Shown: piece after piece, positions 43,205 through 57,513 of the stretch | Numbering within the stretch: position 1 is the stretch's first letter | How the letters are laid out: the number at the start of each line of letters is the position of its first letter | Assembly: GCF_002283365.1 (NCBI RefSeq) | Contig: NZ_MQWD01000001.1 | Location: 129,948-193,947 of the forward strand | From: Rubrivirga marina | GTDB taxonomy: Bacteria > Bacteroidota > Rhodothermia > Rhodothermales > Rubricoccaceae | Length of the DNA: 64,000 bases | Reading direction: 5' to 3' | Made by a program: the position numbers and the translations under genes | The notes under the pieces: model-generated | What the model saw: only the letters and a program-made list of their open reading frames with translations | Told to the model about the DNA's origin: nothing | Database searches by the model: none

Positions 43205-45505
43205 ATGCCCCGAGCCGCCCGTCTGCTCTCCCTCGCCGCCGCCCTCCTGGCGGCCGGCGCGACTGCCCAGCCGACCTACGTCAACGCCGTCATCCCGGGC
43301 GACCACCCGGACCCCACGCTCACGCGCATCGGCGACGACTACTACACCACCGGCTCGTCGTTCAACGTCACGCCGAAGATCTACCACTCGACCGACCTCG
43401 TCCACTGGCGGGTCATCGCCCAGCCGGTCTCGGCGGCGTGGGAGCTCTACGACGACCGCCCGGCCGGCGGCGTGTGGGGCGGCCACACGGTGTTCCACAA
43501 CGGCCAGTACTGGCACTTCTTCGGGCTCGACCCGAACGGCCGCCAGATGTACTTCGTCACGGCCGACCGGGTCGAGGGGCCGTGGAGCGAGCCGACCCGG
43601 ATGATCGTGCCCCCGGGCGAGCGTGGGTTCGGCGTCGACAACTCCGTCTTCATCGACGACGACGGTCGGTGGTTCCTCCTCACCAAGAACGGCGAGGCGT
43701 TCAACTTCTTGGTCGAGCTCGGCGACGACGGCCAGCCGAACGGGGTCGTCCTCGACCTCTCGTGGCTCAACCCGGAGCCCGAACTGCCCTACGGGTGGGC
43801 CGAGGGCCCCGTCATGTGGAAGCACGACGGGTACTACTACTACAGCTTCGCGCAGCACCTCGTCGGCAACCAGTACGTCATGAAGAGCGCGGTCCAAGGC
43901 GCCCCGCTCTCCGACGACCCGGCCGCCTGGGAGACGCCCCGCATCCTGTTCGAGGGCCCGCGCGGCGCCTTCAGCACGCCGAACCACAGCTCGCCCGCCG
44001 TCACGACCCCGAACGGGACCAGCTGGGTGATCTCGCAGTCGTACGACGCGAGCCGGAGCAGCGAGTGGCAGGCGCTCGGGCGGCAGGGCGTCCTCAGCCA
44101 GATCGGCTACGACGCCGACGGGTGGCCGACAGCCCAGTACCCGAACGGGCCCGAGGACGCGCCCGACCTCCCCAGCAGCGGGATCCCGTGGACCGTCCCG
44201 CGCTCCGACTCCTTCGACGGCGCGGAGGTCGCGCCCGACTGGTCCTTCCTCGGCTACACCCCGGACGACACGTACTCGCTCACGGCCCGGCCGGGCTGGC
44301 TCCGCCTCACGCCGACCGGCGGCCGAACCTTCCCAGCGACTCCAGGCCAGAACACCGTCATACAGAACGCCGCCGAGAAGGCGTACTCGCTCGTCACGCG
44401 CGTCGACTTCGACCCCGAGGACAGCGAGGACGAGGCCGGCCTCTGGACGTTCAACGGGCCCGAGACGCTCGTCGCCAAGGTGTTCGTCTCGTCCGACGTC
44501 GGCGACGTGCCCGCCGTCGTCTCCTTCTTCGACGACGCGTACACGGGCGTCGCCCCGCTCGAGGCCGAGGGCCCGGTCTGGCTCCGCCTCCACCGCAACG
44601 GCCACGACGTCACGAGCGCCTACAGCACCGACGGCCTCACGTGGACCGACCTCAGCACGGTCGACGTCTCGCGGATGGACCGCCACCAGCCGGTCTCGGA
44701 GGGCGGCATGGACTTCAACGCGTTCACGGGCAACCAGCAGGGCCTCTACGTCCGTGGTGAGGTCCCGGCCGACTTCGACCTCTACGTCTACCGCGACGCC
44801 TACGCGCCCATCCCCGCCCAGTACCCGTCGAACTACAACGGCGTGACCCCGTCCGCCTCGGGCGCCCTCGGGGGGATCCACGACGGCGACTGGGCGATGT
44901 ACGCCGGGGTCGAGTTCGGCGGCCCGGGCGACGGCGGCGACGACGTCGACTACCCGTTCGCGCCGGAGGCCCTGACCGTCGAGGCTGCCGGCACCGTCGG
45001 CGGGACCATCGAGGTCCGCCTCGACTCGCTCGACGGACCCCGAATCGCGGAGATCACGGTCGGGCCGACGGGCGGCACGTCGACCTACGAGACCTTCGGC
45101 GCCGAGGTCGACGCGATCAGCGGCCAGCACGACGTGTTCCTGACGTTCTCGGGCTCGGGGACGGGCGCGCTGTTCACCCTCCGGAGCCTCACGTTCACGC
45201 CGCAGGCGCTCGACACCGCGTCGGACGACGCGCCGCGACCGACCGCGTCGCTCGCCCCCAACCGACCGAACCCCTTCGGGATGGAGCCGACGACGATCGC
45301 GTTCTCGCTCGACGCCCCCGGCCGCGTCACGCTGGCCGTCTACGACGTGCTCGGCCGCGAGGTCGCCACGCTCGTCGACGGCGTCCGCCCGGCCGGGACC
45401 CACGCCGTCCCGTTCAGCGGCGCCGGCCTCCCGAACGGGCTGTATGTCTACCGGCTCACGGTCGGCGAGCACACCGAGGCGCGGACCATGACCCTCGTCC
45501 GCTAA
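43205..45505 (+). CDS. Secreted GH43-CBM6 arabinofuranosidase/xylosidase with T9SS tail
   Basis: 766 residues, signal peptide MPRAARLLSLAAALLAAGAT. The propeller shows VIPGDHPDPTLTRIGDDYYT (base Asp), GVDNSVFIDDDGRWFLL and YGWAEGPVMWKHDGYYYYSF (acid Glu). A GH43 C-terminal beta-sandwich (about 340-530) is followed by a CBM6-like module (about 530-660: ALTVEAAGTVGGTIEVRLDS) and a T9SS domain (LAPNRPNPFGMEPTTIAFSL, LGREVATLVDGVRPAGTH, ending MTLVR). It is the longest of the three GH43 enzymes and the only one with a T9SS tail, so it probably works at the surface beside GH10 and GH30. First gene of the plus operon with GH51 copy 2 and CE15. Confidence 0.92.
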   Translation: MPRAARLLSLAAALLAAGATAQPTYVNAVIPGDHPDPTLTRIGDDYYTTGSSFNVTPKIYHSTDLVHWRVIAQPVSAAWELYDDRPAGGVWGGHTVFHNGQYWHFFGLDPNGRQMYFVTADRVEGPWSEPTRMIVPPGERGFGVDNSVFIDDDGRWFLLTKNGEAFNFLVELGDDGQPNGVVLDLSWLNPEPELPYGWAEGPVMWKHDGYYYYSFAQHLVGNQYVMKSAVQGAPLSDDPAAWETPRILFEGPRGAFSTPNHSSPAVTTPNGTSWVISQSYDASRSSEWQALGRQGVLSQIGYDADGWPTAQYPNGPEDAPDLPSSGIPWTVPRSDSFDGAEVAPDWSFLGYTPDDTYSLTARPGWLRLTPTGGRTFPATPGQNTVIQNAAEKAYSLVTRVDFDPEDSEDEAGLWTFNGPETLVAKVFVSSDVGDVPAVVSFFDDAYTGVAPLEAEGPVWLRLHRNGHDVTSAYSTDGLTWTDLSTVDVSRMDRHQPVSEGGMDFNAFTGNQQGLYVRGEVPADFDLYVYRDAYAPIPAQYPSNYNGVTPSASGALGGIHDGDWAMYAGVEFGGPGDGGDDVDYPFAPEALTVEAAGTVGGTIEVRLDSLDGPRIAEITVGPTGGTSTYETFGAEVDAISGQHDVFLTFSGSGTGALFTLRSLTFTPQALDTASDDAPRPTASLAPNRPNPFGMEPTTIAFSLDAPGRVTLAVYDVLGREVATLVDGVRPAGTHAVPFSGAGLPNGLYVYRLTVGEHTEARTMTLVR

Positions 45506-45545
45506 GCTCCCCGTCCTCGTCGCCCCCCTGCCCTCCCCCTCCCCC

Positions 45546-47072
45546 ATGCCCCGCCTCCTCCTCTCCCTCGCCCTGCTGGCGCTCGCCGCCAGCGCGTCGG
45601 CCCAGCCGCTCCGCATGATCGTCGACGCCGAGGCCGGCGAGACCACGATCAACAAGCACATCTACGGCCACTTCGCCGAGCACCTCGGCCGCGGCGTCTA
45701 CGACGGCCTCTGGCGCGAGACCGACGACGGCTGGGAGATCAACGACGACGTCGTCGAGGCGCTCCGCCAGATCCAGATCCCGAACCTCCGCTGGCCCGGC
45801 GGCTGCTTCGCCGACTACTACTTCTGGGAGGACGGGATCGGGCCCGTCGAGGACCGCCCGACCGTCGTCAACAACCTGTGGGGCGGCGTGACGGAGGACA
45901 ACGGGGTCGGCATCCACGAGTTCATGGAGCTCGTCGACCGACTCGACACGGAGCCCATCGTCGTCGGCAACGTCGGGAGCGGGACGGTCCGGCAGATGGC
46001 CGACTGGTGGCAGTACGTGAACCACCCGGGCCCGAGCCCGATGGCCGACCTCCGCGCCGAGAACGGGCGCGCGGAGCCGTGGAACATCCGGTTCTGGGGC
46101 GTCGGGAACGAGAGCTGGGGGTGCGGCGGCAACATGGACGCGGCGTACTACGCCGACCTCTACAAGCGCTACGCCACGTTCCTCCACGGGTACGGCAACG
46201 TCCGCCCGTTCCGGATCGCCGCGGGCCCGGCCGGCGACGACTACGACTGGACCGAGACGCTCATGCGCGAGGCCGGCGGCATGATCGACGGGATCGACGT
46301 CCACCACTACACGATCAACGGCGACTGGACGACCTCGAAGGGCCCGGCCGTCGGGTTCACCGAGGCCGAGTGGTTCGAGCTCATGCAGCGCGCGCTCCAG
46401 ACCGACGACATCATCCGCGGGCACTCGGCCATCATGGACCGCTACGACCCACAGAACCGCGTCTGGCTCATCATGGGCGAGTGGGGCACGTGGCACAACC
46501 CGTACCCGGGATCGAACCCCGGCTTCCTCTACCAGCAGAACACGCTCCGCGACGCGATCGTGGCCGCGGCCTCGCTCAACATCTTCAACCAGCACGCGCG
46601 GCGCGTCAAGATGGCCAACATCGCGCAGACGGTGAACGTGCTCCAGGCGATGATCCTGACCGAGGGCGACCAGATGATCCTGACGCCGACGTACCACGTG
46701 TTCGACTTCTACAAGGCGCACCAAGACGCGACGCTCCTCCCGATGCAGATCGACCGCGGCACGTACACGTTCGAGGGCCAGTCGATCCCGGCCGTCAGCG
46801 CGTCGGCCTCGCGCGACGCCGAGGGCCGCGTCCACGTCACGCTCGCCAACATGCACCCGCGCGACGGGTTCGACATTCAGGCCTCGATCCGCGGGCTCGG
46901 CGACCGCTCGGTCTCCGGCCAGATTCTCACGGCCGACGCGTGGGACGCCCACAACACGTTCGAGGCGCCCGAGACGCTCGTGCCCATGGACTTCGACGGC
47001 GCCCGCCTCGACGGCGAGACGCTCTCGATCGACCTCCCGGCCAAGTCGGTCGTCGCGCTGACACTGGAGTAA
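45546..47072 (+). CDS. GH51 alpha-L-arabinofuranosidase (copy 2)
   Basis: 508 residues, signal peptide MPRLLLSLALLALAASASAQ. NKHIYGHFAEHLGRGVYDGL, LRWPGGCFADYYFWEDGIGP, acid/base in FWGVGNESWGCGG (Glu about 189) and nucleophile in LIMGEWGTWHN (Glu about 312) identify GH51. It is strongly similar to the copy at 41343 over the whole length (for example identical VTEDNGVG and MADWWQYVNHPGPSPMADLR), which points to a duplication followed by divergence. It follows the GH43 gene by 40 nt and precedes CE15. Periplasmic removal of arabinose from arabinoxylan fragments is expected; the two copies may prefer different linkages or chain lengths. Confidence 0.92.
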   Translation: MPRLLLSLALLALAASASAQPLRMIVDAEAGETTINKHIYGHFAEHLGRGVYDGLWRETDDGWEINDDVVEALRQIQIPNLRWPGGCFADYYFWEDGIGPVEDRPTVVNNLWGGVTEDNGVGIHEFMELVDRLDTEPIVVGNVGSGTVRQMADWWQYVNHPGPSPMADLRAENGRAEPWNIRFWGVGNESWGCGGNMDAAYYADLYKRYATFLHGYGNVRPFRIAAGPAGDDYDWTETLMREAGGMIDGIDVHHYTINGDWTTSKGPAVGFTEAEWFELMQRALQTDDIIRGHSAIMDRYDPQNRVWLIMGEWGTWHNPYPGSNPGFLYQQNTLRDAIVAAASLNIFNQHARRVKMANIAQTVNVLQAMILTEGDQMILTPTYHVFDFYKAHQDATLLPMQIDRGTYTFEGQSIPAVSASASRDAEGRVHVTLANMHPRDGFDIQASIRGLGDRSVSGQILTADAWDAHNTFEAPETLVPMDFDGARLDGETLSIDLPAKSVVALTLE

Positions 47073-47157
47073 CGGCCCCGCCCGCCTCGGGCCGATTCCG
47101 GACGCGGGAAACCGGGTGGGGCGAGTCGTATGATGACTCCGCCCCACCGCACCGCCC

Positions 47158-48555
47158 GTGCCTCCTCTCGCCCTCGGCCTCCTCGCCCTGCTCCTGACCC
47201 TGCCCGCCTCGGCGCAGCCCGCGTGGCGGTCGATGTCGCCGGAGGAGCGGCAGGCCTATGTCGCCGAGCTCCAGCGCGAGGCCGAGGCCGATCGCCAGCG
47301 GATGATGGAGCTCCTCGGCGTCGAGACGCCGTCGGGGCTGCCGTCGTGGGAGGACGACCCGAACCGGCCGGCCCACATCGTCCCCCGCGAGGGGACGGTC
47401 AACTGGTACGACGAGGCCGGCAACGTCCACGTCCGCGGCGAGTGGGGGCGGTGGTCGAACTACGTCGAGGCCGAGGCGGGCGGGCCCGAGCCCCTCGACC
47501 CGCTCGTCCTCCGCTCCGGCCGCCGGGTCGAGACGCCGGAGCAGTGGTGGACGCTCCGCCGCCCGCAGATCCTGGAGGACTACGTCGTCGAGCTCTACGG
47601 CCGCACGCCGGCCGGCACGCCGGGGGTCTTCTTCCGAGCCGTCGGCCCCGACTCAACGGCGGGCGGGGCCACCGTCCGCCAGGTCGTCGGGCGGATCGAG
47701 GACGCGCGCCTGCTCCCGACCGCGCCGCGGATCGAGATGACGCTCTACCTCCCCGAGGGCGCCGAGGCCGTCCCGGTCGTCGTCCAAGTCGGCGGGTTCT
47801 GGGGACAATCCGATGAGCTCCCCGAGCCGGTGCGGCAGGCGCTCGACCGCGGCTGGGCGTTCGCGACGGTCGAGACCGGGCCGATCCAGATGGACAGCGG
47901 CGCCGGCCTCGACGAGGGCGTCATCGGATACATGAACGGCGGTCGGCCGCGCGACCCGGACGACTGGGGCGTCCTCGCGGCCTGGGCCTGGGGCCTAAGC
48001 CGCGCGCTCGACTACCTCGATCAGGCGCCCGAGACCGACGCCGCCCGGGCCGCCATCACGGGCCACTCGCGGAACGGCAAGGCCGCCCTCCTCACGGCCG
48101 CGCTCGACACGCGCTGGGCCGCCGCCTGGCCGTCGTGCGCCGGCGCGATGGGCACGTCGCTCGAGAAACGGGACTGGGGCGAGACGATCGACAACGTGGC
48201 CTCAGCGGGCGGCTACCACTGGATGGCCGGGACCTTCCTCACCTACGCCGGCCGCTGGGACGCGATGCCCGGCGACGCCCACTTCCTGATGGCCCTCGTC
48301 GCCCCGCGCCCCCTCTTCGTCACCGGCGGCACGACCGACCAGTGGTCGGACCCCCACGGCGAGTTCCTCGCGGCCGTCGCCGCCGACCCGGTCTACGAGC
48401 TCTTGGGCGACCCGGGCCTCCCCACCACGGAGATGCCTGCGCCCGACGTCGCCCTCACGAGCGGCGCGCTCGCCTTCCGCAACCACGAGGGCGGCCACAC
48501 ACCGGCCCCCGACTGGCCCGTCTTCTACGACTGGCTCGGCCGCTACGTCGAGTAG
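47158..48555 (+). CDS. CE15 glucuronoyl methylesterase-like hydrolase
   Basis: 465 residues starting with GTG at 47158, which directly gives the signal peptide PPLALGLLALLLTLPASAQ. The CE15 nucleophile motif is AAITGHSRNGKAALL (Ser about 304; the family form is G-C/H-S-R-x-G-K), followed by WPSCAGAMGTSLEKRDWGET and the His in FRNHEGGHTPAPDW. Glucuronoyl esterases cut ester bonds between lignin and the 4-O-methyl-glucuronic acid branches of xylan. This fits the GH30 and GH10 xylanases, although no alpha-glucuronidase is present in the window. It is the last gene of the plus operon; a putative regulated promoter for the next gene begins about 95 nt downstream. Confidence 0.87.
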   Translation: MPPLALGLLALLLTLPASAQPAWRSMSPEERQAYVAELQREAEADRQRMMELLGVETPSGLPSWEDDPNRPAHIVPREGTVNWYDEAGNVHVRGEWGRWSNYVEAEAGGPEPLDPLVLRSGRRVETPEQWWTLRRPQILEDYVVELYGRTPAGTPGVFFRAVGPDSTAGGATVRQVVGRIEDARLLPTAPRIEMTLYLPEGAEAVPVVVQVGGFWGQSDELPEPVRQALDRGWAFATVETGPIQMDSGAGLDEGVIGYMNGGRPRDPDDWGVLAAWAWGLSRALDYLDQAPETDAARAAITGHSRNGKAALLTAALDTRWAAAWPSCAGAMGTSLEKRDWGETIDNVASAGGYHWMAGTFLTYAGRWDAMPGDAHFLMALVAPRPLFVTGGTTDQWSDPHGEFLAAVAADPVYELLGDPGLPTTEMPAPDVALTSGALAFRNHEGGHTPAPDWPVFYDWLGRYVE

Positions 48556-48648: not shown

Positions 48649-48698
48649 CATATGGGCAGGTCCGCCCAGACACTGAGCGGTAGGAGTCGAGTAGCGTG
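48649..48698 (+). promoter_or_regulatory. LuxR-box-type promoter of the FAD monooxygenase gene
   Basis: The palindromic box CATATGGGCAGGTCCGCCCA (48649-48668, TGGGC-N6-GCCCA) is followed after exactly 23 nt by TAGCGTGAG (48692). The same box, spacing and downstream element occur at three other promoters in the next 6 kb. The start codon at 48750 is about 50 nt further on. Confidence 0.75.
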
Positions 48699-48749
48699 AG
48701 GGCACGCCGGCCCGTTTCCGGGCGGTCCCCCGTCTCTCTTCCAACGCTG

Positions 48750-49934
48750 ATGATCGCCTCCTCCTCTCCTCCACCGTCGTCTCCCCGAGTTCTCGTCGTC
48801 GGCGGGGGCATCGGCGGGCTCGCCGTGGCCGTCGGGCTCCGGCGGGCCGGGCTCCCGGTCGAGGTCGCCGAGGCGGCCCCGGCGCTTGAGCCCGTCGGGG
48901 CCGGCATCGTCCTCTGGCCGAACGCGCTCCACGCGCTGGACCGGCTGGGTCTGGGCGCGGCCGTCCGCGCGGTTTCGCAGCCGAGCGCCGGCGGGGCCAT
49001 CTGGACGCCCGACGGAAGGCCGCTCGTCCGGGTCGACCCGGAGGCGCTCGCCGCCCGCCTCGGCGAGGCCCCGCGCGCCATCCACCGGGCCGACCTCCAA
49101 GCGGTCCTGGCAGACGCGTTCGACGGCCCGCTCCACCTCGGCGCCCGCGTCATCGGCATCGAGGACGAGGGCAAGCGCGTGCGGGTCCGGGTGGCGGACG
49201 ACCGGGAGTTCGAGGCCGACGTCCTCATCGGAGCGGACGGGCTCCACTCGGCCGTCCGGTCGGCGCTCCACGGGGCCGCCGCTCCGGCCTACGCCGGGTA
49301 CACGGCCTGGCGGGGCGTCGCGCAGGCGGACGGGGCGGTGCTGGACGGAGAGGCCGTCGGCCGCGGCCAGCGGTTCGGGCAGGTCCCGCTCCCCGACGGC
49401 CGGGTCTACTGGTTCGCCACGGCGACCGTCCCAGCGGGCGGCCGAGACGCCGCCCGAGACGAGTTGGTCCGCCGCTTCACCGAGTGGCACCCGTCGGTGC
49501 GGTCCCTCGTCGAGGCCACTCCCGAGGGCGCCGTCCTCCGCAACGACGTCTCGGACCGGCCGCCGCTTGGCGTGTGGGGCCGGGGCCGGATCACGCTCCT
49601 CGGCGACGCCGCGCACCCGTCGACGCCCAACCTGGGCCAGGGGGCGGGGCTCGCGCTCGAAGACGCCGCCGTGCTGGCCGACCGGCTCGGCAGCACACGC
49701 GACGGGCTCGCCGCGCTCCGGGACTACGAGGCCGCACGGTCCGGCCGGACGGCCGCCGTCGTTCGCCGGTCACGCCGCGTCGGCGCGCTGATGCAGGCGT
49801 CGAACCCCGTCGCGGTCGCCGCTCGCACCCTCCTCCTCCGGCTGACGCCGCCCCGCGCCGTCCTCGCCCAGACCGCTCGCGTCGGGGCCTACGACGCCTT
49901 CAGAGACGAGCCTCCCTCCCTGCCCGTGACGTGA
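48750..49934 (+). CDS. FAD-dependent monooxygenase (aromatic hydroxylase-like, group A)
   Basis: 394 residues; no signal peptide, so cytoplasmic. The dinucleotide-binding motif VLVVGGGIGGLAVAVGLRRA is at the N-terminus, the DG motif in VLIGADGLHSAVRSAL and the FAD ribityl motif in LLGDAAHPSTPNLGQGAG. Together these define class A flavoprotein monooxygenases (UbiH, salicylate and urate hydroxylase relatives), which use NAD(P)H and O2 to hydroxylate aromatic or similar substrates. A start upstream in the same frame is possible, but the ATG at 48750 fits the predicted promoter spacing. It is separated from CE15 by its own LuxR-box promoter and ends at a bidirectional terminator. The substrate is unknown. 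Confidence 0.87.
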   Translation: MIASSSPPPSSPRVLVVGGGIGGLAVAVGLRRAGLPVEVAEAAPALEPVGAGIVLWPNALHALDRLGLGAAVRAVSQPSAGGAIWTPDGRPLVRVDPEALAARLGEAPRAIHRADLQAVLADAFDGPLHLGARVIGIEDEGKRVRVRVADDREFEADVLIGADGLHSAVRSALHGAAAPAYAGYTAWRGVAQADGAVLDGEAVGRGQRFGQVPLPDGRVYWFATATVPAGGRDAARDELVRRFTEWHPSVRSLVEATPEGAVLRNDVSDRPPLGVWGRGRITLLGDAAHPSTPNLGQGAGLALEDAAVLADRLGSTRDGLAALRDYEAARSGRTAAVVRRSRRVGALMQASNPVAVAARTLLLRLTPPRAVLAQTARVGAYDAFRDEPPSLPVT

Positions 49935-49974
49935 CCGAGGCCGACGGACCCGGCGCGGAGGCCCTACCCCTCAT

Positions 49975-50002
49975 GCGGGACGCCCACCGAGGGGCGTCCC
50001 GC
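49975..50002. terminator. Bidirectional terminator hairpin
   Basis: GCGGGACGCCC (49975-49985) pairs perfectly with 49992-50002 around a 6-nt loop, in the gap between the convergent monooxygenase (stop 49934) and T9SS protein (stop 50049) genes. No clear T-run on either side. Confidence 0.65.
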
Positions 50003-50048
50003 AACGCTCGGACTGGGGAGGGCGGAGACGAGAGGGCGGGCCGGCTCG

Positions 50049-51392
50049 TCACCGAGCGACGGTGAGCGGGCGGGTGACGGCCCCCACGGCGGTCCCCACG
50101 CGCACGAGATAGAGGGCCGGCGGGAGCCGGGAGGCGTCGACCTGGAGCTCGTGGCTGCCGGCCGCCAGCGGGCCCTCGTGGAGGAGCGCCACGCGCCGGC
50201 CGAGCGCGTCGAGCACCTCGGCGACGACCTCGCTCGCCGCCCCCAGGGAGAGGGTGGCGCGGGCCCCCACCGGCGTCGGGTTCGGCCACACGCCCAGCCC
50301 CACCTCCGGCGCCTCGTTCGGCCCGCCCTCGCCCGCCGTGCCGACCGCGAGCCGCGTCTCGACCTCGATCCAGTAGATCGACAGGGCTCCGAACGGGGCC
50401 TCGAAGTCCAGGGTGACCTCCGAGCTGTACGCCCCCGCGTTGCGACGGCGGATCTCCATCGGGCCGTCCGTAGGCACGTGCCGCGCCGAGATCCGGTAGC
50501 GACCGATCGGGACGTCGGCCACCGCCCACCCGTCGCCAGTGTGGACGGCGGCCCGTGTGATCGTCGCGCCTGCGCTCCCATCCACGAGCGGGCCGACCGG
50601 CGCCAGGGTCAGCTCCACGTCCGACTCCGTTATCCCGAGCGGGACGTAGACGAGCACGGGGCTCCCGTAGAACCGGCCCTCGGCCCTCGGCCCGGCGATC
50701 CGCCAGTCGAAGGACCGGACGGCGCCGAGGTTGCCCGCGAGCGGGCCGGCGTCGGGGTGGAGGTCGAACCGGAAGGTCTGCCCGCCGAACTCCCGGTCGG
50801 TCGTCGCCACCACGGACCACGTGGAAGGGATGGGCAGGAGGTCGAGCCGGTAGCACCCGTTGCTCCCCGTCGTCCCCTGGACGGTCGACCCGGGGAGGGA
50901 CTGGCTGTGGGCCGTCACGAGGGCGCCGGCGAGCGGCCGGCCCTGCGTGTCGACGGCCCCGCCGGTGACGACGTACGGAGTCACGCTCGACCCGCATGGG
51001 GGGGCCGGGCCGCCCTCGCCCACGGTGACCGTCGCCCGGTACGCGCCGGTCTCGGCCGGGGCGTAGGACGTGACGACGACCCGGTAGACGCCGGATTCCG
51101 GGGCCACCTCCTCGATGTAGGAGCGGGTCCGGCTCCCCTCGTAGTCGTCGTTCTCCCACGCCCCGCCGTCCGGGCGGACGACGAGGAGGTAGGGGTCGAA
51201 TGCGGTCGAGACGAGGTCGACTTGAACGAGGTGGCCGGCCTCGACGTCGACGTCGTACGCGTCGAAGTACTCGCCGGACGCGAGCGTCGGGTCGCCCGAT
51301 TCGAGGCGGCCGTCGAACGTCTGGGAGGTCGTGGACTGAGCGGCCGAGGCGGTCGTGGTCAGGGCCAGCGCGAAGGCGAGAAGGGCTCGCAT
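50049..51392 (-). CDS. T9SS-exported protein with PPC and carboxypeptidase-regulatory-like domains
   Basis: 447 residues, signal peptide MRALLAFALALTTTASAAQ. Residues 25-125 resemble a bacterial pre-peptidase C-terminal (PPC) domain (VDVEAGHLVQVDLVSTAFDP, GVYRVVVTSYAPAETGAYR). Then comes a carboxypeptidase-regulatory-like fold (GGAVDTQGRPLAGALVTAHS, GSNGCYRLDLLPIP) and a further beta domain. A T9SS tail closes the protein (VWPNPTPVGARATLSL, LGRRVALLHEGPLAAGSH, ending LTVAR). No catalytic domain is visible, so it may be a surface adhesin or binding protein. It is the only exported member of the set of four genes with the LuxR-box promoter, with the box 57 nt upstream of its start. Confidence 0.75.
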   Translation of the reverse strand: MRALLAFALALTTTASAAQSTTSQTFDGRLESGDPTLASGEYFDAYDVDVEAGHLVQVDLVSTAFDPYLLVVRPDGGAWENDDYEGSRTRSYIEEVAPESGVYRVVVTSYAPAETGAYRATVTVGEGGPAPPCGSSVTPYVVTGGAVDTQGRPLAGALVTAHSQSLPGSTVQGTTGSNGCYRLDLLPIPSTWSVVATTDREFGGQTFRFDLHPDAGPLAGNLGAVRSFDWRIAGPRAEGRFYGSPVLVYVPLGITESDVELTLAPVGPLVDGSAGATITRAAVHTGDGWAVADVPIGRYRISARHVPTDGPMEIRRRNAGAYSSEVTLDFEAPFGALSIYWIEVETRLAVGTAGEGGPNEAPEVGLGVWPNPTPVGARATLSLGAASEVVAEVLDALGRRVALLHEGPLAAGSHELQVDASRLPPALYLVRVGTAVGAVTRPLTVAR

Positions 51393-51417
51393 GGGTCGGT
51401 TGGGTTGGGGTGAGCTC

Positions 51418-51468
51418 CGAGGCTACCGGCCGCCGATCCGGGCATGGATGGGCAACCCTGCCCATTTC
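51418..51468 (-). promoter_or_regulatory. LuxR-box-type promoter of the T9SS/PPC protein gene
   Basis: On the minus strand the box GAAATGGGCAGGGTTGCCCA (51468-51449) is followed after exactly 23 nt by TAGCCTCGG (from 51425). Box and spacing match the other three promoters; the downstream element differs slightly (TAGCCTC against TAGCGTG). Confidence 0.75.
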
Positions 51469-51570
51469 CTCCGCACCCGGCCGGAACCGACCCCGAGCGC
51501 CCGACCCGAGCCATCGGCGCCCCAGGCCGGGAAGGCCTCACGACGAGGGGCAGGCGGTGCGGCCCCGCCA

Positions 51571-51620
51571 CAAATAGGCCGTTCTGCCCACGGAGCGCGA
51601 ACGGGCAGACGGGTACCGTG
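51571..51620 (+). promoter_or_regulatory. LuxR-box-type promoter of cupin gene 1
   Basis: The box CAAATAGGCCGTTCTGCCCA (51571-51590) is followed after exactly 23 nt by TACCGTGGG (51614). The cupin start codon lies at 51675. The left half-site is TAGGC in place of TGGGC. Confidence 0.75.
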
Positions 51621-51674
51621 GGACATCGCCGGTCTCCGCGCTCGAGATCGGACGTCCTCTTGCCCCACCCTCTC

Positions 51675-52292
51675 ATGCCCCCCTACCCCTACACCATCGA
51701 CAACGGCCTCGGTGAGCGGCTCACGTTCGTCCGCCGGATCGCGACCCCACGCGGGGCCCGCCTGGAAGGCAAGACCCTCGTCGCCCCAGGCGCCGGGCCG
51801 CCGATGCACGTTCACCACTTCGAGGACGAGGCGTTCACCGTCGCCGAGGGCCGGCTCGGGTACGAGCGGGCGGGCGAACCGCCGGCCTTCGCGGGACCGG
51901 GCGAGACGGTCATCTTCCGCGCGGGCGAGGCCCACCGGTTTTGGAACGCCGGCGACGGCGACCTCCGGTGCTCGGGGTGGATCGAGCCGGCCGGCAACGT
52001 CGAGTATCTCCTCCGTGAGCTGTTCGCGTCGCAGAAGCGGAACGGGGGCAGCCGGCCGGACCCGTTCGACGCGGCGTTCCTCGCGCACCGCTACCGGAGC
52101 GAGTTCTCGATGACGGCGATCCCGGCATTCGTCCGGAGGCTCGTCTTTCCCATCGTGGTCGCTCTCGGACACGTTCTCGGGAAGTACGCGGCGTACGCCG
52201 ACGCCCCCGCCCCGCTCGACCGGCCGGCAGGCCCGTCGCCCGTCACTCCACCCATCGCCGGGCCGAGGCGGGCCGTTACGCCGGCTGCATGA
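51675..52292 (+). CDS. Cupin-domain protein 1 with hydrophobic C-terminal segment
   Basis: 205 residues, no signal peptide. A cupin_2 barrel occupies about 35-115: motif 1 is GPPMHVHHFEDEAFTVAEG (HxHxxxE metal ligands) and motif 2 is GETVIFRAGEAHRFWNAG (His). A hydrophobic stretch (IPAFVRRLVFPIVVALGHVL) near 145-175 could associate with the membrane. Such small cupins may be dioxygenases, isomerases or binding proteins; nothing decides between them. The start at 51675 agrees with the conserved promoter element 60 nt upstream. Its 3' end overlaps the stop of the convergent LuxR pseudogene by 17 nt. Confidence 0.78.
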   Translation: MPPYPYTIDNGLGERLTFVRRIATPRGARLEGKTLVAPGAGPPMHVHHFEDEAFTVAEGRLGYERAGEPPAFAGPGETVIFRAGEAHRFWNAGDGDLRCSGWIEPAGNVEYLLRELFASQKRNGGSRPDPFDAAFLAHRYRSEFSMTAIPAFVRRLVFPIVVALGHVLGKYAAYADAPAPLDRPAGPSPVTPPIAGPRRAVTPAA

Positions 52293-53377
52293 GCCGGGCG
52301 GCGACGGCCGCGCGGCCGGGCACGTCGAGCTTGAGGAGGATGGCCTCGACGTGGTGCCGCGCCGTGTGCTTCGAGACGAACAGCCGCGCGCCCAGCGCCT
52401 CGTTGCTCAGCCCCTCGGCGAGGAGGAGGGCCACCTCGGCCTCCCGCCGCGTCAGCCCGTGCCGCGCGCGGACCGCCTCGTGCGTTGGGAGCGCCGGCCC
52501 GCCCGGCGGGTCGACCGTCACGAGGAAGGCGTCGGTCCCACCGAAGGCGCCCGGCGCGACGAGCACGCCGCGGAGCGTGTAGCGCCCGCAGGCCGTCTGC
52601 ACCTCGCGCACGACCGGCGTGGGCGCCGCGCCGGTCGCCTTGAACGCGAGCGGGGCGAGCGCGCGGGCGACGAGCCGGAGCGCTCCCTCGACCCGCTCGC
52701 GCTCGGGGTCGGCGGCGAGGGCGGCGACGAGCGCGGGGTTGCGGTGCGCCTCGCGCCCGTCGGCGTCGAACGCGGCGAGTGGGTCTTGGACGACGTCGAG
52801 TGAGCGCCGGTGCGCCGCGAGCCGGCCGAGCGCGTCGAGCCCGGCGGTGAGGGCCGGCGCGAGCACGCGCAACAGCGGCACGTGCTCGCCGGGCTCGGGC
52901 GGGCGGCGGAGCTGCGTCGCCGTGAGGTGGACGATCCCGGCGGGCGTGGCGCAGACGATGGACTGCGCGTCGGCCGTGCCGAAGGGGCGGAGCACCTCGT
53001 GGTAGAACAGCGTGTTGAAGGCCGTCCCCGTCGCGCCGAGCAGGTGGTCGACGGTGTGGAGGTCGCCCACCGCCGTCCCCGGCCGCGTGATCAGCCGGTA
53101 CGCCTCGTCGAGGAGCGGGTCCGGCCCGCCGCCCCCTTCGGCGACAGGACCGCAGAACGTGCGCAGCATCTCGGCGTGGGCGTCGTCGTGCCCGTGCACG
53201 AGCTGGGGCCGCGCCGGGGAGGTAGAGCGTGCCGCCCTCGGCGCCGAACGCGTCGGCGACGGTGCGCATGACCTCATGCCCCCACGCCTCGGGCGTGGAG
53301 GCCGCCAGCGGCGAGAGCAGCGCGCGCTGGGCCGCTTCGACGCGGGCGAGGTCGGCCGACGTGAGCGAGAGGGCCAT
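52276..53377 (-). pseudogene. LuxR-type transcriptional regulator, copy 2, with a frameshift
   Basis: Compared with its intact neighbour at 53380, the gene is complete (start 53377, MALSLTSADLARVEAAQRAL; end ARLMQPA) but changes frame near 53205-53208. There the N-terminal frame reads GTLYLPGAAP and the rest continues one base on as QLVHGHDDAH. Removing one base from the run of four C (minus strand) restores a protein of about 366 residues. The C-terminal LuxR helix-turn-helix is intact (RHGLTRREAEVALLLAEG, VSKHTARHHVEAILLKLDVP). It is either a recent pseudogene, an assembly error in a homopolymer or, less likely, programmed frameshifting. Only 2 nt separate it from the upstream paralogue. 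Confidence 0.8.
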
Positions 53378-53379
53378 CG

Positions 53380-54495
53380 TCAGGCGGGCTGGAGGAGCCT
53401 CGCGGCGACGGCGGCCCGGCCGGGCACGTCGAGCTTGAGCAGCACCGCCTCGACGTGGTGCCGGGCCGTGTGGGGCGAGACGAACATCCGCGCGGCGAGG
53501 GCGTCGTTCGTGAGCCCCTCGGTGAGGAGGAGGGCCACCTCGGCCTCCCGCTTCGTCAGCCCGAACCGGGCGCGCAGGGCCTCGGGGGACGGGAAGGCCG
53601 GCCCTCCCGGCACCTCGACCGACACGAGGAGGGCGTCGGTCCCTCCGAACGCCTCGGGCCCGACGAGCACCCCGCGGAGCGCGTAGCGCCCGCGCGCCGT
53701 CGACACTTCGCGGGCGACGACCGGCAGGGCGGGCGCGCCCCCAGCTCGGGGGAACGCGAGGGCGCGGAGGCCGGCCGCGAGCGCGCGGAGCTCGATCTCG
53801 ACGCGCTCGCGGTCGGGGTCGGCGGCGAGCGCGGCGGCGAGCGCGGGGGTCCGGTGCGTCTCGCGGCCGTCGGCGTCGAACGCGGCGACGGGCTGGTCGA
53901 GCGCGTCGAGCGCCCGGCGGTGGGCGGCGTGGCGGGCGAGCGCGTCGAGACCGGCTGCGAACGCGGGGCGGAGCGCGGCGAGCAGGGGGAGGGTCTCGCC
54001 GGGTTCCGGCGACCGCCGGAAGGCGTGGGCGGTCAGCATGGCCGCCCCCGACGCGCCGGGGACGAAGACCGCGTGGGTCTCGTGGGCGCGGCCAGGCGCG
54101 AGGACCTCGTTGTAGAACGTCGTGCCCCACGCGAGCCCCTGTCCGCCGAGCAGCTTGTCGGTCACGTAGAAGTCCCAGACGCCGACGTCGTGACGGACGA
54201 GCGCGTCGTAGAACACGTCCAGGGCGGGGTCGGGCGAGGGGCCGGCGCCGGACCAGGGACCGGACGTGAACGCGTCGATCCCGCGGGCCGTCTGGTCGTC
54301 CAGGCCGTGCGCCACCACGACCTGGGGCTGGCCCGCGAGCGTGAACGTGGCCGTCTCCGCACCGAGCGCGTCGGCGAACGCGCGCATGGCCTCGGCCCTC
54401 CACGCGTCCACGGACGGCGCGGCGAGTGGGGAGAGGAGGGTGCGGGTGGCGACCTCCATCCGGGCCAGGTCGGCCGACGTGAGCGAGAGCGCCAT
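53380..54495 (-). CDS. LuxR-type transcriptional regulator, copy 1 (intact)
   Basis: 371 residues; start at 54495 chosen because MALSLTSADLARM matches the start of the tandem paralogue. The N-terminal 300 residues form an unrecognised sensor region (GAF/PAS-like in length, with VVAHGLDDQTARGI and HDVGVWDFYVTDKLL). The C-terminus is a LuxR/NarL-type helix-turn-helix (FGLTKREAEVALLLTEGLTN, VSPHTARHHVEAVLLKLDVP). It probably binds the TRGGC-N6-GCCCA boxes at 48649, 51449, 51571 and 54615, all within 6 kb; this is inference. The box at 54615 lies 120 nt upstream of its start, and on the minus strand it is followed after 24 nt by GACCGTGGG, so autoregulation is possible. Confidence 0.85.
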   Translation of the reverse strand: MALSLTSADLARMEVATRTLLSPLAAPSVDAWRAEAMRAFADALGAETATFTLAGQPQVVVAHGLDDQTARGIDAFTSGPWSGAGPSPDPALDVFYDALVRHDVGVWDFYVTDKLLGGQGLAWGTTFYNEVLAPGRAHETHAVFVPGASGAAMLTAHAFRRSPEPGETLPLLAALRPAFAAGLDALARHAAHRRALDALDQPVAAFDADGRETHRTPALAAALAADPDRERVEIELRALAAGLRALAFPRAGGAPALPVVAREVSTARGRYALRGVLVGPEAFGGTDALLVSVEVPGGPAFPSPEALRARFGLTKREAEVALLLTEGLTNDALAARMFVSPHTARHHVEAVLLKLDVPGRAAVAARLLQPA

Positions 54496-54614
54496 CGGGG
54501 CGGCGGCGAAACGCGGCGAAAGTAGAGCGTGGCCGGGGCCCCGCCTAGCCCGGCCCCTTCGAAAACGGGAGGCCACCGGATGCGCCCCACGGTCTCTTCA
54601 CGGGGGCCCGGCGG

Positions 54615-54664
54615 GAAATAGGCAACGATGCCCATAAGGCGACCCCCTTCAGCCCGGTAGCGTG
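54615..54664 (+). promoter_or_regulatory. LuxR-box-type promoter of cupin gene 2, possibly divergent to the LuxR genes
   Basis: The box GAAATAGGCAACGATGCCCA (54615-54634) is followed after exactly 23 nt by TAGCGTGGG (54658), and the cupin start is at 54716. On the other strand, GACCGTGGGG stands 24 nt beyond the box, so it may also serve the LuxR genes starting at 54495. Confidence 0.75.
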
Positions 54665-54715
54665 GGGCGTCGGCGAGGGGCCACCCCCCGCCTCCCCTTT
54701 ACCACCCCAACTCCG

Positions 54716-55265: not shown

Positions 55266-56435
55266 ATGACACGCCTCTCTCTTCTGGCCATCGTCCTCGC
55301 CTTCGCAGTTCCTCCGACCGAGGCGCAGGGCCTCCTCGGCCGCGCCCGCCGGGCCGCCCAGCGCGGGGTCGAGCAGGCCGTCGACCGTGAGGCCGAGCGC
55401 CGCGCCGACCAGGCCGCGACGGACGCCATTGATGGCGCCGTCGGCGCCCCGACCAGCGCCCCAGCCCCAGACCCCGTCGATCCCGCCGGCGGCCCGGCCG
55501 TCGCGGCCGCCCTCGTCAACTACGACTTCGTCCCGGGCGAGCACGTCCTCTTCGCCGACGACTTCACGGCCGAGACGCTCGGCGACTTCCCCCGTCGGCT
55601 CGCGTTCGTTTCCGGCAACATGGAGACGGCCGAATGGCAGGGCCGCCGGTGGCTCCGCGCGACGTCGTGGGCCGAGTTCGCCATCGAGCTGCCCGAGGCG
55701 CTCCCCGAGCGGTTCACGTTCGAGTTCGAGGCGGCCATCCCGCACGGGGCCTCCCAGGACCTGTACTTCAGCGACGACCCCACGCACCACGTCGGGCTCA
55801 GCCTCTACGAGAGCGGGGTCGAGTCGCGGAACCGCTCGGCCGCACGGCCCTCGGCGCTCCCCCAGCCCGACGCGCCGTTCCCGGTGAAGGTGATGGCCGA
55901 CGGCGACTACGTGAAGGTGTACGTCAACGGGACGCGCGTGGCGAACGTCCCGAACGCGGCGCTCGGCCGCTCGCGACGGGTCCGGTTCGTCGTGAAGGCA
56001 GAGCAGGGGAAGCCGGCCTACTTCGGCGACTTCCGCCTCGCCGAGGGGGGGCGCGACCTGCCGGCCGTCGCCGCGGCCGTCGTCGAGGCCGCGCCCGAGG
56101 CCCCGCTCGTGCTGACGGGCGTCGTGTTCGACACGGGCCGGGCCACGCTCCGGCCGGAGTCCGGGCCCGTCCTCGACGCCGTCGCGGCCTCGCTCGCGGC
56201 GCACCCCGAGGTCCGCGTCCGCGTCGAGGGCCACACCGACGCGACGGGCTCGGCCGAGACGAACCGGACGCTCTCCCAGGCCCGCGCCGAGGCCGTCGCG
56301 GCAACCCTCGCCGCGAAGGGCGTGGCGGCCGACCGGCTGGAGGCCCAGGGATTCGGGCCGGACCAGCCCGTCGCCGACAACGCGACGCCCGAGGGCCGCC
56401 AGCAGAACCGGCGCGTCGCGCTCGCCCGCCTCTAA
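55266..56435 (+). CDS. OmpA-family outer-membrane/peptidoglycan-binding protein
   Basis: 389 residues, signal peptide MTRLSLLAIVLAFAVPPTEA. An alanine/arginine-rich helix (ARRAAQRGVEQAVDREAERR) is followed by a concanavalin-like beta-sandwich at about 95-265 (HVLFADDFTAETLGDFPRRL, VKVMADGDYVKVYVNGTRV). A classical OmpA C-terminal domain ends the protein (LTGVVFDTGRATLRPESG, VRVEGHTDATGSAETNRTLS, RQQNRRVALARL), which binds peptidoglycan. Similar sandwich-OmpA proteins are common in Bacteroidota envelopes with unknown specific roles. It is probably its own transcription unit. Confidence 0.87.
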   Translation: MTRLSLLAIVLAFAVPPTEAQGLLGRARRAAQRGVEQAVDREAERRADQAATDAIDGAVGAPTSAPAPDPVDPAGGPAVAAALVNYDFVPGEHVLFADDFTAETLGDFPRRLAFVSGNMETAEWQGRRWLRATSWAEFAIELPEALPERFTFEFEAAIPHGASQDLYFSDDPTHHVGLSLYESGVESRNRSAARPSALPQPDAPFPVKVMADGDYVKVYVNGTRVANVPNAALGRSRRVRFVVKAEQGKPAYFGDFRLAEGGRDLPAVAAAVVEAAPEAPLVLTGVVFDTGRATLRPESGPVLDAVAASLAAHPEVRVRVEGHTDATGSAETNRTLSQARAEAVAATLAAKGVAADRLEAQGFGPDQPVADNATPEGRQQNRRVALARL

Positions 56436-56565: not shown

Positions 56566-57513
56566 ATGCCGACCGCTCCGAACACCCCCCACCGCCCGAC
56601 CGCCCGCCGGCTCCTCCGAATCGCCGGGCGCGCCGTCGCCGGGCTGGCCCTCGTCGTCGCCGTGCTCGCCGTGGCCGTCTACGGCCTCAGCGAGCGGCGT
56701 CTCGCCCAGCGGTTCGCGGTCCCCGAGGCCGTGCTCCTCGCCGACGCCGAAACCGACAGCGCCGCCGTCGCGCGGGGCGCCCACCTCGCCGTCACGCGCG
56801 GGTGCACCGGCTGCCACGCCGGCGACCTCGGCGGGAAGGTGATGATCGACGACCCGGCCTTCGCGAGGATCGTCCCGACGAACCTCACGCCGGGCGGTCG
56901 ACTGGCCGGCTGGACGGCGCGGGACGTCGACCGGGCCGTCCGCCACGGCGTCGCGCCGGACGGGCGCGGGCTCCTCCTCATGCCGTCGCACGAGTACCAC
57001 GGGCTCTCGGACCGCGACGTGGCCGACCTCGTGGCGTACCTCCAGACGGTCCGGCCCGTCGAGCGGGCGCTCCCCGCGAGCCGCGTCGGCCCGGTGGGGC
57101 GCGCGCTCTTCCTCGCCGGGCAGGTCCCGCTCCTCCCGGCCGAGACGATCCCGCACGCGGCGCCCCGGGCGGCGGCGCCCGAGGCCGGCCCGACCGTGGC
57201 CTACGGGGCTTACCTCGCCACGAGCTGCCAGGGGTGCCACGGCCCCGACCTCGCGGGCGCCCCGGCCCACGGCCCCGACGGCGTGCCCGCGCCCGACCTC
57301 ACCGCGACCGGCACGGCCGGGCGGTGGACGGAGGCCGCGTTCGCGCACGCCCTCCGCACCGGCCTCCGCCCCGACGCCGCGCCGATGGACTCGCTCGTCA
57401 TGCCGTGGACGATGACCCGGCCGATGAGCGACGACGACCTCCGCGCGCTCTACCTCTACCTCCGCGCGCTCCCCGAACGGCCGGCCGGCGATCCGCTGGC
57501 GGTCTCGCGCTGA
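56566..57513 (+). CDS. Membrane-anchored diheme cytochrome c
   Basis: 315 residues. An uncleaved N-terminal anchor (AVAGLALVVAVLAVAVYGL) precedes two cytochrome c domains with haem motifs RGCTGCHAGDLGG (about residue 80) and TSCQGCHGPDLAG (about 225). Candidate distal Met ligands are in LLLMPSHEYHG and SLVMPWTMTRPM. Diheme proteins of this size commonly serve as electron carriers or as subunits of membrane dehydrogenases. A partner dehydrogenase is not adjacent; the PQQ enzyme at 29143 already has its own haem. The next gene begins 18 nt downstream, so both may be transcribed together. Confidence 0.88.
   Translation: MPTAPNTPHRPTARRLLRIAGRAVAGLALVVAVLAVAVYGLSERRLAQRFAVPEAVLLADAETDSAAVARGAHLAVTRGCTGCHAGDLGGKVMIDDPAFARIVPTNLTPGGRLAGWTARDVDRAVRHGVAPDGRGLLLMPSHEYHGLSDRDVADLVAYLQTVRPVERALPASRVGPVGRALFLAGQVPLLPAETIPHAAPRAAAPEAGPTVAYGAYLATSCQGCHGPDLAGAPAHGPDGVPAPDLTATGTAGRWTEAAFAHALRTGLRPDAAPMDSLVMPWTMTRPMSDDDLRALYLYLRALPERPAGDPLAVSR

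Follow-up and report, generated by a model that had tools for sequence, protein, structure and literature searches.

Genes and Palindromes of the Locus

The window, i.e., the whole 64-kb stretch of DNA analysed here, carries a gene for a GAF-PAS-LuxR regulator of 371 aa (53380–54495, minus strand), with a GerE HTH at residues 313–364, and a second GAF-PAS-LuxR gene (52276–53377, minus strand) that is frameshifted near 53210: one frame, entered at 53377, encodes residues 1–55, and a different frame the remainder (52276–53277). The sequence-only reading of this DNA had counted two LuxR-type regulator genes within 6 kb; both were located, but only that at 53380–54495 is intact. The frameshifted gene, the product of which is about 61% identical to the intact regulator across its C-terminal part, may be a pseudogene, or the frameshift a sequencing error. 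Four genes around them are the predicted targets discussed below: a FAD-binding monooxygenase (PF01494; 48750–49934, plus strand), an exported protein weakly matching PPC and CarboxypepD_reg (50049–51392, minus strand), the C-terminal tail of which is homologous to the T9SS sorting domains of proteins in other clusters, and two cupins (PF07883; 51675–52292 and 54716–55195, both plus strand). The latter cupin gene is followed on the same strand by an OmpA-domain gene (55266–56435) and a putative cytochrome c gene (56566–57513). Ahead of the cluster, the region 43205–48555 encodes a glucuronyl esterase (PF22244) along with two proteins that, read from their sequence, appear glycosidase-like and arabinofuranosidase-like, which suggests a hemicellulose-degradation locus.

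Only four TRGGC-N6-GCCCA palindromes occur in the window (48653, 51575 and 54619 on the plus strand; 51464 on the minus strand), each with AAAT or ATAT immediately before it and a TASCSTSRG element exactly 23 nt after it. All four are intergenic and aimed at a gene start 57–85 nt away (ATG at 48750, 51392, 51675 and 54716). Candidate operator 1 (ATATGGGC-N6-GCCCA; 48649–48668, core 48653–48668, plus strand) and its -7-like element TAGCGTGAG (48692–48700, plus strand) precede the monooxygenase gene, while candidate operator 2 (AAATGGGC-N6-GCCCA; 51449–51467, core 51449–51464, minus strand) and TAGCCTCGG (51417–51425, minus strand) precede the gene of the exported protein. Upstream of the cupin genes lie candidate operator 3 (AAATAGGC-N6-GCCCA; 51572–51590, core 51575–51590, plus strand) with TACCGTGGG (51614–51622, plus strand), and candidate operator 4 (again AAATAGGC-N6-GCCCA; 54616–54634, core 54619–54634, plus strand) with TAGCGTGGG (54658–54666, plus strand). 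Operator 4 is situated in the divergent region separating the intact regulator gene from the cupin gene, and may additionally serve the promoter of the regulator gene itself. Counted by strand, the palindrome has six matches in the window for 0.16 expected, a number reached in none of 100 shuffles; similarly, the complete 48-nt motif (palindrome-N23-TASCSTSRG) has four matches in the window and none in 100 shuffles. The arrangement first read from the letters, i.e., four palindromes with their AAAT/ATAT flank at an exact distance of 23 nt from TASCSTSRG, is confirmed.

The Regulator Protein

The only Pfam match of the intact regulator is PF00196 (GerE HTH; E-value 2.8e-10, residues 313–364); its profile matches the GerE, NarL and VraR structures, and by sequence the GerE structure 1fse ranks among its best matches. 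The autoinducer-binding family gave no Pfam match at an E-value of 0.001, and no NCBIfam model came near its cut-off. In a structure model computed with 19 family members (mean pLDDT 88), residues 1–197 resemble phytochrome GAF domains (Z 12.0), tied with the AHL-binding domain of CepR2 (Z 11.2, 153 residues, rmsd 3.3 Å), whereas residues 200–295 are PAS-like, a reading based on the secondary structure of the model and on alignments to PAS proteins, and residues 304–368 form the HTH. An N-terminal receiver domain is absent, Pfam giving GerE alone and the model showing GAF-like and PAS-like parts. The GAF-PAS part would sense a ligand or a redox signal; a phytochrome-like cysteine-linked bilin is excluded because the 371-aa protein contains no cysteine.

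Among the genomes searched, the full-length protein is found in this order only, and the family is likewise confined to the order among 395 sampled genomes of the phylum. A genome scan with a seven-row alignment returned, outside Rubrivirga, only HTH-level or short matches.

Distribution of the Motif in the Genome and in the Order

In the following, G000 designates the genome under study, G179, G180 and G181 genomes of the same genus, and G165, G150 and G212 genomes from three other families of the order. Across the 5 Mb of G000, the palindrome followed after 23 nt by TA occurs in eight places: the four of the window, three at C1:3063000–3073000 and one at 517839. The group of three adjoins another paralogue of the window LuxR protein (C1:3063110–3064219), and a search with that protein showed that paralogues adjoin most of these places. 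When the full -7-like element was required, a search of 245 genomes of the class returned only G000 and two genomes of the same genus. LuxR homologues of these relatives are encoded at C3:1303131–1304219 in G179 and at C337:3151–5395 in G180, whereas G181 has neither a full-length LuxR homologue nor the motif.

A wider pattern, WTRGGYN6RCCYAW, has 14 places in G000 against two for the reversed control, and 10 of the 14 are no farther than about 10 kb from a LuxR paralogue (binomial P ~4e-14, the near-paralogue zones amounting to 2.3% of the genome). A third cluster emerged at C1:1390793–1404365, around four more LuxR paralogues. The sequence-only reading had named many copies at random positions as an outcome that would speak against it; the genome-wide search yields few copies, and their positions are not random. 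Sites also adjoin LuxR homologues in G179, G180, G165, G150 and G212. An order-wide search for TRG..CYA and the fixed geometry alone gave 21 matches, among which the near-perfect palindromes are those of G000, G179, G180 (two), G165, G150, G212 and G166. Those in the first six genomes adjoin a regulator of the family, except that one of the two in G180 (C611) adjoins an orthologue of a target gene instead; the G166 site and an imperfect site in G151 have no family regulator at hand.

Some palindromes are distant from any family regulator found (517839, 2839440 and 4066952 in G000; C344 in G151). Conversely, no recognisable operator lies close to several paralogues (L058 and L062–L064, among others), and the palindrome search beside L049, L051, L057–L059, L061–L064 and L066 returned nothing convincing. 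The search of the 245 genomes of the class for strong palindromes gave single matches in other genera, about as often as the reversed control did, and these were left out of the counts.

A few isolated sites deserve mention in their own right. At G166:C1:206644–206691, AAATGGCGGGTTTCCGCCATG is accompanied by TAAGTT at the right distance, with no family regulator detected in that genome. The palindrome TGGGCCATCCRGCCCA, with TACTACCGC 23 nt on, is kept from G000 to G180 between two divergent genes (L065:9839 and L103:11338), one of which is LmeA-like in G000, and no family regulator is near. A TGGGT palindrome stands ahead of a gene resembling group XII secretory phospholipase A2 (PF06951; L098:9441–10123), distant from every LuxR paralogue found. 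Finally, the G180 contig C303 (L102) has a G+C content of 36%, versus 71–77% in the other fetched contigs of that genome, and is possibly a contamination or a mobile element.

Half-Sites and Recognition Helix

The half-site differs by cluster (TRGGC, TGGGY, TGGC), and the difference tracks the recognition helix of the regulator encoded there. Where the helix reads SPHTARHHVE or a close variant, TRGGC is found on both sides, while with APxTARRHTEN (L049/L050) all four sites combine one TGGGT half with one TGGGC half. In G212, the helix SPHTARRHTAN goes with the site TGGC-N8-GCCA. The site in G150 is TAGGA-N6-TCCCA; its helix cannot be read safely since the end of the regulator reading frame departs from the family. 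The consensus RWWTRGGY is that of GerE. LuxR-type PedR has this box too (PMC13421787), and the half-site AAATRGGC fits it (RWWTRGGYNNYY).

Promoter Geometry

Beyond the window, 18 sites were given an orientation from the gene start closest to them and compared with the palindrome as the anchor of the alignment; some had been found with patterns requiring A/T flanks or a downstream TA, most through scans of fetched loci in which neither condition was imposed. TA...T sits at offset 23 in eight of them and at offset 22 in one, and nowhere else between 5 and 80; for.A..[GT]TG, nine sites have it at offset 23 and two at offset 22, and other offsets average 0.08. Since the 23-nt spacing had been defined from the window alone, its recurrence in sites that took no part in the definition is independent support. 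The upstream flank of these sites is A-rich, and TG follows the palindrome in all 18, in contrast to none of the four in the window. The spacing and the palindrome are also retained between homologous promoters, the spacer sequence of which diverges: in TTHB210-like genes (two in G000, one in G180; no literature on TTHB210 was found), AATAGGC...GCCCATGCG and TA are kept over a diverged spacer, and in the T9SS propeller genes, compared between G000 and G180, palindrome and -7 element are kept with a 1-nt indel between them. Loss of the motif from orthologous promoters, the other adverse outcome foreseen at the outset, is thus not what related clusters display. For the cupins of the window, no close orthologue exists in the sibling genomes.

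The -7 elements are degenerate (GACGTTG, GAAGTTG, TAGCGTG; general form nAnn[GT]TG), and a -33 TTG is absent from these promoters. The background upstream of genes in this genome was taken from the larger of two upstream samples, the smaller being too thin for a consensus: TA..TT(G) counts 79 against about 29, TA..TTG 27 against about 8, and TTG-N20-TA...T 12 against 3.5, whereas TA..GTG, the form of the window, is hardly enriched. Set beside the Bacteroidota sigma-A -7 box TAnnTTTG (at -12 to -5), the elements read nearer to TA..TTG, as well as to TAnnTTGY, a box of Flavobacterium promoters that has been ascribed to an alternative sigma factor (PMC9723704). With the Flavobacterium -7 box, located at -12 to -5 (PMC9723704), as a guide, the T of TA can be set at -12; judged by position, the palindrome would then extend from about -51 to -36, with its centre at -43.5, i.e., in the position of a class II activator.

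Predicted Targets Across Clusters

Only two protein families are common to most clusters, the GAF-PAS-LuxR regulators and exported proteins with a T9SS tail, the latter being alike between clusters mostly through that tail. A palindrome lies upstream of each of three homologous genes for small lipoproteins (G000, G179 and G165), and PAS histidine kinases are the predicted targets in L047 and L052. In L047, L050, L053 and L060, the regulator gene has the palindrome shortly after its stop codon. Genes for small exported proteins resembling cytochrome c lie at L047:15959–16495, L053:878–1426 and L055:8971–9435, with CxxCH in L047 and L055 and CNECQ in L053.

Proposed Working and Its Alternatives

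It appears highly likely from these sequence comparisons that the palindrome is a local operator, bound by GAF-PAS-LuxR regulators and serving class II activation of their neighbours; in the four promoters of the window, it is very probably the DNA switch to which these regulators bind. AWWTRGGY-N6-RCCYA would be the operator of a family of one-component regulators, a dimer of which, most likely of the intact protein encoded at 53380–54495, would place each LuxR/GerE HTH on one GerE-type half-site. So bound, the regulator would adjoin or cover the -33 region of a promoter that lacks a -33 TTG and whose -7 element is degenerate, and, from its class II position, could recruit RNA polymerase and activate the genes of the FAD monooxygenase, the exported T9SS-type protein and the two cupins. 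For these four promoters, we infer both the binding and its outcome, activation rather than repression. A LuxR-type operator near -43 controlling the surrounding genes is what the sequence-only reading had put forward, and three independent lines largely support it: the palindromes cluster beside LuxR paralogues and orthologues away from the window, the 23-nt spacing recurs outside the window, and the half-site changes with the recognition helix, its TRGGC form matching the PedR box (PMC13421787). On the other side stand the TG missing from the window sites, the paralogues with no recognisable operator close by, the palindromes distant from the family regulators found, the lack of conservation of the window cupin targets in sibling species, and the near absence of enrichment of TA..GTG.

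The same operator might instead serve a LuxR-type regulator acting as a repressor (or in both ways depending on position), which would block the -33 region until released by a signal. A dimer bound to a palindrome that adjoins or covers -33 could indeed exclude RNA polymerase, and PedR, which shares the box, is both an activator and a repressor (PMC13421787). Yet promoters that combine degenerate -7 elements with the lack of a -33 TTG are what is expected of activator dependence, and a strict spacing of 23 nt fits contact with the polymerase better than steric blocking, so that we regard repression as unlikely. More improbable still is that another transcription factor, e.g., of the CRP/FNR family, binds the palindrome and that the LuxR genes are mere neighbours. 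The CRP/FNR site TGTGA-N6-TCACA does have the same half-site spacing (5-6-5 geometry) and a similar promoter position (class II, near -41.5), but GAF-PAS-LuxR proteins are the sole regulator family common to the clusters, G181 lacks both the full-length LuxR homologue and the motif despite belonging to the same genus, the half-sites vary with the LuxR recognition helix, and the box fits the LuxR-type consensus. As for an RNA hairpin or terminator, to which an inverted repeat with a 6-nt loop just past LuxR stop codons might be likened, it can be given almost no credence: the stem has only 5–6 bp, with no U-tract in the direction of the preceding gene, some palindromes, in the window as well as beyond it, are placed between divergent genes and ahead of both, and the fixed distance to TA...T would be left unexplained. 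Both the hairpin or terminator and the CRP/FNR site were rejected.

Under the preferred reading, activation by a local GAF-PAS-LuxR regulator, the unit described here would be one of several paralogous islands, distributed over this genome and the order, in each of which a regulator has operators of its own, and the half-sites of these islands would have diverged together with the recognition helix. In its fuller form, this becomes a proposal that we hold to be plausible and, on balance, slightly favoured: the islands are confined to the order, their paralogous activators and palindromes have co-diverged into orthogonal specificities (TRGGC, TGGGY, TRGGA, TGGC) within a fixed geometry, palindrome-N23-(-7 element), and each island steers its own targets (exported T9SS proteins, lipoproteins, cytochromes, PAS kinases). 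If true, the islands would offer a set of natural variants from which the DNA-recognition code of the LuxR-type helix could be read, because related regulators and operators can be paired directly while the promoter frame stays constant. They would also amount to a worked-out regulon in Rhodothermia, a group for which (as for Rhodothermales) the literature searched yielded no study of LuxR-type promoters, and would tie a sensory regulator to exported T9SS cargo.

Comparison with Known Systems

Response regulators of the NarL/FixJ type have an N-terminal receiver domain, in place of which the regulator described here has GAF-like and PAS-like parts. With GerE and PedR, it shares the C-terminal GerE-type HTH (PF00196), but these are small proteins devoid of GAF-like and PAS-like domains, and the half-sites here form an inverted repeat with a fixed N6 and a fixed promoter position. 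Lux boxes are likewise palindromes near -42.5. The N-terminal domain of the regulator, as modelled, resembles the autoinducer-binding domain of AHL-binding LuxR proteins (CepR2, SdiA, TraR), although phytochrome GAF domains fit it equally well (Z 12.0, tied); the regulator differs from them by its additional PAS-like domain, by its box sequence and by the lack of a sequence match to the autoinducer-binding family.

The closest in working would be the PAS-LuxR proteins of Streptomyces (PimM, PteF, FscRI), i.e., pathway-specific activators whose 16-bp palindromic site lies in the -35 region of adjacent genes (PMC9774167), a position to which the palindrome here, ending 23 nt before the -7-like element, would correspond. 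The domain make-up and the operator nevertheless place the present family outside this group: PimM has a single N-terminal PAS domain followed by the HTH and no GAF-like domain, in contrast to the succession of GAF-like, PAS-like and HTH parts found here, and its operator, CTVGGGAWWTCCCBAG (PMC9774167), differs from TRGGY-N6-RCCYA, in which the half-sites are 2 bp wider apart and made of other bases. The targets of PAS-LuxR proteins are mostly polyene biosynthesis genes, unlike the monooxygenase, exported T9SS-type protein and cupins predicted here.
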